From positions 1 through 64,000 of the forward strand of contig CADBPM010000026.1 in the NCBI GenBank assembly GCA_902796595.1: a stretch of 64,000 nt of DNA, read 5' to 3'. The notes under the pieces were generated by a model, which ran no database searches, was not told where the DNA came from, and saw only the letters and a list, made by a program, of their open reading frames with translations. The translations under genes and the position numbers were made by a program. How positions within the stretch are numbered: the first letter of the stretch is position 1; each line of letters starts with the position of its first letter. This document shows, one piece after another, positions 8,229 to 63,669 of this stretch. Origin of the DNA: an uncultured Lachnospiraceae bacterium (GTDB lineage Bacteria; Bacillota; Clostridia; Lachnospirales; Lachnospiraceae).

Positions 8229-8385
8229 CCATCCCCCTCTTGCCAGACTCCTTAACTCTGGCTTCTCTGATAATAATTTTATAATAAGCGAAGAAAATAA
8301 TTGTGGATAGAGCAAGCTCTATCCAGCATTAATTCTCGGCGACGTTTATCGCAAACGAAATTGCTTATTTCGTTTACGATATCTA
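8229..8385. other. Hairpin-rich leader region upstream of aroF
   Basis: Two inverted repeats precede the dispersed element at 8386. One is a perfect 9-bp palindrome GGATAGAGC/GCTCTATCC (8305-8324). The other is a 14-bp stem with one mismatch, TATCGCAAACGAAA/TTTCGTTTACGATA (8347-8381). A GCCAGA/TCTGGC hairpin lies just before the aroF ribosome binding site. No convincing promoter was found, although A/T-rich -10-like strings occur around 8275-8290. Confidence 0.5.
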
Positions 8386-8460
8386 TGTAACATCTGCTTT
8401 GCCTGATGCCACACTCTGCCGGTCAACACGAGAGCGTTTATCATGACCGGCTAGTCCTTA
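8386..8460 (+). repeat. Dispersed two-hairpin element, family 1, copy A
   Basis: First stem TGTAACAT (8386) with imperfect partner near 8406-8413. Second stem GCCGGTCA (8418-8425) / TGACCGGC (8444-8451) encloses a CGAGAGCG core, then CTAGTCCTT. Related copies lie at 15016-15092 and 32226-32301. Confidence 0.75.
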
Positions 8461-8540
8461 GCTTATCCTATTTTCCTTTTTCTTTCAATCCTTCTTCTAT
8501 TCCTTCTGGCACTACCTGATATTTTCTTCTATCATAGCAG

Positions 8541-14996: not shown

Positions 14997-15015
14997 AGTT
15001 TCCCCTTCCATTTAT

Positions 15016-15092
15016 TGCATCATCTGATAGAGCCAAATGATGCACTCTGCCGACCAACGCGAGAGCGATTGATCATTGTCGACAAATCCTTT
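15016..15092 (+). repeat. Dispersed two-hairpin element, family 1, copy B
   Basis: First stem TGCATCAT (15016-15023) / ATGATGCA (15037-15044), perfect. Second stem GCCGACCA (15049-15056) with imperfect partner TTGTCGAC (15076-15083) around a CGCGAGAGCG core. It lies between hisS and the small gene. Confidence 0.75.
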
Positions 15093-15121
15093 TAATATTT
15101 CCACCTATAGTTTAAATGAAA

Positions 15122-29966: not shown

Positions 29967-29993
29967 CAGCATTCTCCCCGGAAGAACCCTAAT

Positions 29994-30047
29994 CACCTTG
30001 TGTGATGAGCGATGGCTACATCTTATCACTTCGTGATAAGACATATG
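29994..30047 (-). repeat. Dispersed two-hairpin element, family 2, single copy
   Basis: Plus-strand view: an ATCAC/GTGAT hairpin, the linker GAGCGATGGCTACATC, then TTATCAC/GTGATAA with a TTC loop. The linker is the same as in the tandem copies at 63493-63669, but both stems differ in a paired way. Confidence 0.75.
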
Positions 30048-30071
30048 CCCAAAACGCCGTATGCCTTTCAT

Positions 30072-30250
30072 TTTGACTCCTAGCAAACGCCAGGTGGGTC
30101 TCCGCAGATCAGCCTCTGTCTACCAATATAAGAGGCACCTTGTGGTACATTATGGTGTGACATACACAGATAAATAATAGGAGTCCCGTTTAAAGTCATG
30201 TAGGCTCAAAATAATAAAGGCTCGCACGTCCCAGGCTATAATCAGTCAAA
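30072..30250 (-). ncRNA. Candidate structured RNA of about 180 nt, family not identified
   Basis: Its ends pair: TTTGACT (30250-30244) with AGTCAAA (30078-30072), then TAGC with GCTA. An inner helix GGGACTCC (30187-30180) / GGAGACCC (30103-30096) has one A-A mismatch. GCCTC (30136-30132) pairs with GAGGC (30116-30112). Two AGCCT strings can pair with the AGGCT loop as a pseudoknot. GACTCC can pair instead with GGAGTC (30080-30075), an alternative fold. A promoter places the 5' end exactly at the closing stem. 6S, raiA-type RNA or a new cis-regulator of the transglutaminase gene are possible. No long reading frame covers it. Confidence 0.6.
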
Positions 30251-32183: not shown

Positions 32184-32225
32184 AATACCCCCTGATCAAA
32201 TGGATAAAAAATTTGTTATATAGTA

Positions 32226-32301
32226 CAAGGACTAGCCGACCATGATAAACGCTCTCGCGTTGGTCGGTAGAATGTAACATCCGGCTCTACCAAATGTTAC
32301 A
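32226..32301 (-). repeat. Dispersed two-hairpin element, family 1, copy C
   Basis: Minus-strand orientation. First stem TGTAACAT/ATGTTACA (32294-32301 / 32273-32280), then CGACCA...TGGTCGGC (32261-32268 / 32235-32242) around ACGCGAGAGCGT, then CTAGTCCTT. Lies between comEC and fhs. Confidence 0.78.
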
Positions 32302-32351
32302 ATATGCTATTACCATTTTAACACATAAAAAGCACTGTGTCCTTAATCAGA

Positions 32352-49076: not shown

Positions 49077-49201
49077 GGATATTGCGATAATATGCAACAT
49101 ACATCATCTTAAAAAAGCATTAAAAAAAGACTATCCAGCCATGTTTTACCACTTTCACGATGGCAGGCTGTGTATTACCTGACTTTGTCCGATAATACAA
49201 C

Positions 49202-49231
49202 AAAAGAAGCAATCCTCAGACTGCTTCTTTT
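49202..49231 (-). terminator. Terminator of the YczE-like gene
   Basis: AAAAGAAGCA / TGCTTCTTTT perfect 10-bp stem with T-rich end on the minus strand, 15 bp after the stop. Confidence 0.82.
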
Positions 49232-63467: not shown

Positions 63468-63492
63468 TATTCCTTTTGCTCCACTCTATTCA

Positions 63493-63669
63493 GACAGATT
63501 ATAGAACCATTCGCTCATGAAAATCGCCTATCGGCGATGAGCGATGGCTGCATCTTATTGCTTTGCAATAAGACAGATTATGGAACCATTCGCTCATGAA
63601 AATCGCCTATCGGCGATGAGCGATGGCTACATCTTATTGCTTCGCAATAAGACAGATTATGGAACCATT
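63493..63669 (-). repeat. Tandem 79-bp repeats, family 2 element
   Basis: Two complete 79-bp units (63493-63571, 63572-63650) and the first 19 bases of a third. Each unit has a nested TCGCTCAT...ATGAGCGA / ATCGCC...GGCGAT hairpin and a TTATTGC...GCAATAA hairpin. The units are nearly identical. Confidence 0.9.
63498..63503 (-). promoter_or_regulatory. -10 box of the GT2 operon inside the repeat
   Basis: TATAAT on the minus strand, 31 bp before the ATG at 63467. The same position in the other units reads CATAAT. No good -35 box is visible. Confidence 0.35.

Follow-up and report, generated by a model that had tools for sequence, protein, structure and literature searches.

Small two-hairpin elements in the genome of an uncultured Lachnospiraceae bacterium are probably copies of a non-autonomous REP- or MIRU-like mobile repeat of 75-85 bp that is spreading in genomes of this family, and whose fold is needed for its multiplication. 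The two types of element share one general design, in which a 5' tag is followed by a hairpin with a bulge, a linker of 4-5 nt, another hairpin and, at the end, a short tail of A/T. Other members of the family carry this design in different spellings, which is indicative of a small mobile repeat of a kind not yet described, wherein shape rather than letters is preserved.

The fact that a shape is kept while its letters are free, in genomes that lack the usual REP transposase, raises the question of which enzyme reads the shape. In addition, dozens of copies abut ribosome-binding sites or terminators, and these are ready-made sites for testing how bacteria tolerate or use inserts. Such elements could pass for regulatory RNAs in gut metagenomes, and they probably break assemblies, since some copies are located at contig ends.

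Elements in the window and in the genome

The first-pass annotation had located three elements at positions 8386-8460, 15016-15092 and 32226-32301 of the window (the whole stretch of 64,000 nucleotides that was analysed). All three (copies A, B and C) are present there, in intergenic regions and in both orientations (Table 1). A search for the core motif with up to three mismatches gives 3 matches where 0.39 are expected, and thus the three window copies are not due to chance. A fourth copy (D), which the annotation had missed, adjoins a terminator hairpin, and two elements of a second type lie in a tandem array at 63492-63669 (period 79, 96% matches).

Table 1. Elements and hairpins located in the window. 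R2 and R3 are covariance models described in the text.
Feature	Coordinates	Strand	Evidence
Copy A, alpha type	8382..8461	-	R2 match, 73.7 bits, E 6e-16 in window
Copy B, alpha type	15012..15093	-	R2 match, 79.4 bits
Copy C, alpha type	32225..32305	+	R2 match, 83.6 bits
Hairpin H1 of copy C	32235..32268	+	Folding; pairs counted in alignment
Hairpin H2 of copy C, TGTAACAT...ATGTTACA	32273..32301	+	Folding; pairs counted
Copy D, alpha type	49124..49203	+	R2 match, 68.7 bits, E 1e-14
Second-type element, tandem copy 1, 79-bp unit	63500..63576	+	R3 match, E 2.6e-6; fold
Second-type element, tandem copy 2	63579..63655	+	R3 match, E 1e-7

The unit of the first type, which we call alpha, is ~80-82 nt in length and is composed of an AAKGACTAG tag, a hairpin (H1) carrying a one-sided CAUGNNNA bulge, an AGAG linker, a 13-bp hairpin (H2) and a CAAUAA tail (CAATAA in DNA). 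It reads on the minus strand in copies A and B and on the plus strand in copy C. When these three copies are aligned, invariant blocks are evident outside of the stems. H1 of copy C is formed by an outer stem GCCGACC/GGTCGGT, a 5' bulge ATGAT(A), an inner stem AACGC/GCGTT and a TCTC loop. Solo H2 or solo H1 hairpins are found in loci L080, L103, L072 and L117, indicating that the two hairpins sometimes occur apart.

We also considered that the unit might be a small coding sequence, because AAGGA followed by ATG resembles a ribosome-binding site and start codon. This candidate was ruled out by frame-changing indels and because the second type does not retain the ATG. Of the 63 alpha copies, 46 keep the ATG at its third base, and ATT or ATA is frequent in the second type.

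The genes that flank the window copies have functions unrelated to each other. Copy A is flanked by the genes for an aroFGH-type DAHP synthase and MnmL/YtqA. Copy B is located downstream of hisS, is followed by a short ORF ahead of aspS, and ends 5 nt ahead of a Shine-Dalgarno sequence and ATG. Copy C occupies the gap between the formate-THF ligase and ComEC genes and is opposite in direction to both. At 8293-8380 on the plus strand lies the beginning of a further repeated unit, GAAAATAATTGYGGATAGAG...TCTCGGCGACGTTTAT...TTTCGTTTACGATA, and this unit also directly adjoins alpha elements in loci L073, L077, L104 and L094. A 6S RNA (RF00013, 50.9 bits) is encoded at 30043-30240 on the minus strand, and a weak fragment of a second-type element is located right beside it at 29980-30045.

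When copy C alone is used as a blastn query, there are matches at 37 places in the genome. In a genome-wide covariance-model search, as the annotation had proposed, a model built from 23 copies (R1) matches the 2.35-Mb genome 68 times at E<1e-6 (about 70 copies), and one built from 63 copies (R2) finds a few more. Direct tandem alpha copies are found on three contigs (C86, C93 and C36). Several alpha copies are located at contig ends, and therefore two matches, on C18 and C16, may represent one physical copy. Pairwise identity among alpha copies has a median of 63%, with a nearest-neighbour value of 82%, and the best identity between dispersed copies is 95%, such that there are no near-identical recent ones. 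No carriage of alpha copies by phages or plasmids was found when we looked for it. The exact alpha pattern has no match among 84,980 species, a set from which the records of this genome were possibly left out.

In keeping with the statement of the annotation that it knew of no named family of this form, Rfam 15 gives no match at the elements, and a scan of 9 loci had nothing there even at a limit of E 1. A search of the literature available to us for such repeats in Lachnospiraceae likewise gave no report.

Covariation in the stems

The stem changes initially quoted for copies A, B and C are exact, and they are compensatory in both stem 1 and stem 2. One refinement applies to stem 1 of copy A, which includes A-C mismatches on the strand that had been read (plus), with the same positions forming G-U pairs on the opposite strand. 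Folding gives a better structure on the minus strand for copies A and B.

The proposal that there is selection for structure is supported by alignments of many more copies. When 23 copies are aligned by MAFFT without any fitting to the structure, 92% of cells are paired, and 15 of the 25 pairs exhibit changes on both sides. The covariation score of this alignment is 0.351, compared to 0.183 in shuffles, and none of 500 shuffles reaches it; when partners are slid, the score is at most 0.10. RNAalifold arrives unaided at a nearly identical structure. Furthermore, parsimony on a tree of 63 copies, whose alignment was fitted to the model, counts 60 double changes, whereas shuffling of the partners gives 6.7 on average and never more than 20.

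Wobble pairs bear on the kind of nucleic acid that folds. There are 83 G-U and 103 A-C cells in the alpha stems, and 28 and 27 in stems of the second type, whereas tRNA acceptor stems from the fetched loci, a small sample used for comparison, have 8 and 1. Because A-C mismatches are at least as frequent as G-U pairs, the covariation is not evidence for an RNA in particular, and the hint of the annotation that these stems might be sites of RNA processing receives no specific support. The covariation pattern is equally compatible with DNA hairpins or with decay of the inserted copies, and if that decay is neutral, it could account for the missing excess of G-U pairs. Assignment of a strand by wobble pairs was tried and set aside, as there is no bias between the strands.

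A second spelling and its distribution in the family

Further copies had been predicted, and they are found in this genome and, as other types, in its relatives. The second type has the design of alpha but is written in other letters (GGATAC-CCC...), and it is found in the same genome, where its units were recovered by a structure-only scan, and in a sister species (G004). Weak matches to the alpha model in G004 turned out to have the second-type spelling, namely GGATA(C)-CCCGGCC-AT(N)-inner stem-TTC-...-GGCCGGG-TCTAC-10-bp hairpin. A model built from ten second-type copies (R3), with no alpha copy included, still recovers alpha copies at E 1e-5 to 1e-2, which indicates that the two types share one architecture. 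Among these 10 copies, 20 of the 23 pairs have double changes, and an alignment of 54 distinct second-type copies from several genera, fitted to the model, includes 390 cells with double changes.

At E<1e-6, R3 finds ~21 copies in the genome under study and 18 in G004. Three other genomes of the same genus (G001-G003) have no R3 copies and no alpha copies in covariance-model searches, and a structure-descriptor scan of 200 kb from each of G002 and G003, in which no sequence model was used, turned up no convincing ones. R3 matches are present in 19 of 397 genomes of the family, and seven genomes outside this genus (G119, G205, G264, G221, G293, G359 and G363) carry from 5 to at least 12 copies each. 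Head-to-tail tandem pairs are found in G119, G205, G264, G293 and G363. Species and genera differ in the spelling of one common fold. In four G119 loci (L358, L372, L373 and L374), AAATCGTCC and (A)GACGATGCGG enclose the second-type elements and would pair with each other as an outer stem, making a composite repeat.

Insertion sites, mobility and alternative explanations

There are 18 alpha copies among the 63 that end within 6 nt of a Shine-Dalgarno sequence with a start codon, and 13 whose end is no more than 8 nt from a strong hairpin, in most cases a terminator; distances to genes are approximate because ORFs were called by a simple longest-ORF scheme, and the siting statistics were drawn from 60 loci. 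One or the other feature is located directly at the 3' end of 31 of the 63 copies (49%), a share that is 9% (maximum 24%) when positions are drawn at random from the gaps that hold the copies. The composition of the 3' flank is A-rich, followed by G at +3/+4, and it resembles the AAGGA start of the element itself, which would explain the tandem joins too.

The absence of elements in sister species, their scatter over unrelated sites and the tandem joins suggest spread. Three gene pairs that carry an element in the genome under study have orthologous pairs in G004 or G002 without one, as judged between species that are too diverged for base-by-base alignment of the gaps. We saw no transposition event, exact empty site or target duplication, the flanks having been compared for their composition. 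Most likely, a DNA hairpin or cruciform (or a single strand) would be recognised by a trans-acting enzyme, and this fold would be required for multiplication of the element. New copies would land at A-rich purine sites, either just ahead of a Shine-Dalgarno sequence or at the A/T tract of a terminator, where they would do little harm. Most copies in transcribed gaps would then become intercistronic or 3'-UTR hairpins of mRNAs, perhaps affecting stability or processing. We infer mobility, DNA-level recognition, target choice and any effect on mRNAs from the sequences. A more tentative proposal is that there might be a family-wide new class of mobile DNA in Lachnospiraceae, wherein an enzyme other than the Y1 transposases recognises two-hairpin units by their fold and not by their sequence, and directs them to terminators and to A-rich sites ahead of ribosome-binding sites.

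MIRU elements are ~80 bp in length, form head-to-tail tandem copies and are mobile by means of an unknown enzyme. The elements described here share with them this size and tandem arrangement, and also a location between the stop and start codons of neighbouring genes. Insertion of MIRU at start codons and intercistronic siting have been described (PMC12548453), and the same siting is observed for our intercistronic, head-to-tail units near start or stop codons. However, MIRU has a small ORF overlapping the stop and start of its neighbours, whereas the frames of these elements are broken and the second type does not retain the ATG; the elements also show strong two-hairpin covariation and occur in both orientations. 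ERIC, NEMIS, BOX and CGTC repeats are likewise palindromes that lie between genes, are transcribed and spread within a single lineage with no known transposase, and CGTC repeats lack a dedicated one (PMC3733652). Compared to ERIC, NEMIS and BOX, our elements have no terminal inverted repeats, another size and a two-hairpin layout, and the consensus does not include the CGTC tag, 8-9 bp stem and CCA-like tail of the CGTC repeats. The terminal inverted repeats of a DDE MITE are also absent, as the 5' end is AAKGACTAG and the reverse complement of the 3' end is TTATTG.

One alternative is that the elements are cis-acting RNAs, wherein a transcribed two-hairpin unit protects, processes or insulates mRNA segments within operons and before terminators. 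Copies lie flush with Shine-Dalgarno sites and terminators, covariation is strong, and between codirectional genes there are 29 sense and 13 antisense copies (p 0.02), a coding-strand bias that could reflect a role in the transcript. However, 13 codirectional cases are nevertheless antisense, G-U is not favoured over A-C as it is in the small sample of tRNA stems, no copy is conserved among the orthologous gene pairs compared, and the window copies are flanked by genes of unrelated function, which makes this explanation unlikely in our judgement. We give still less weight to the possibility that the compensatory changes result from a mutational process acting on any hairpin, rather than from selection of the fold. 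Template switching or hairpin repair during replication is a published process that can yield paired changes (PMC8794818), and the second type has few single-change intermediates (95.8% of cells are paired and 28 of 1170 are G-U). This process leaves unexplained the conserved tag, bulge, linker and tail, as well as the fixed order of the two hairpins and their dispersal to ~70 sites, and we regard template switching as a partial rival for the covariation.

The least probable alternative, and a very improbable one, is that the elements are a classical REP/REPIN system or a PATE of IS200/IS605 origin, moved by a Y1 HUH transposase through its reading of tagged, bulged hairpins. As in the REP/REPIN/BIME and RAYT (TnpA_REP) systems, there are many intergenic copies of hairpins with a short unpaired 5' tag and a bulge in the stem, the families are specific to species, and copies form tandem clusters and are sited near gene ends. 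The CTAG-tagged, bulged H1 recalls E. coli REPs, for which both the bulge and a GTAG tag are required (PMC8266576), and there are two Y1 transposases in the genome. However, both are of IS605 type and located beside TnpB, neither adjoins an element, and a cognate RAYT/Y1 gene, usually flanked by repeats, was not found. There is also no Y1 match in five carriers (G119, G205, G221, G264 and G293, of which G264 is 83% complete and the other four 98-100%), which argues against mobilisation by RAYT or IS605 and largely refutes such an origin. The unpaired 5' GTAG (or GT[AG]G) tag of the REP GTAG class is lacking, as the CTAG of alpha is part of AAKGACTAG and the second type carries GGATAC or GGAGAA. 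REPINs are inverted doublets, whereas each element has two dissimilar hairpins whose order is fixed, in a head-to-tail arrangement. It is in Proteobacteria that interspersed palindromic repeats have been studied well; the host here belongs to the Firmicutes, which are unlisted in a survey that places GTAG and CGTC repeats outside this group (PMC3733652). Since neither tag nor enzyme agrees, we do not file the elements as REPs despite their REP-like form. At one IS605-type TnpA/TnpB locus of the genome (L031, on contig C50 of G000), TnpA is preceded by a short extra ORF located between positions 994 and 1198.
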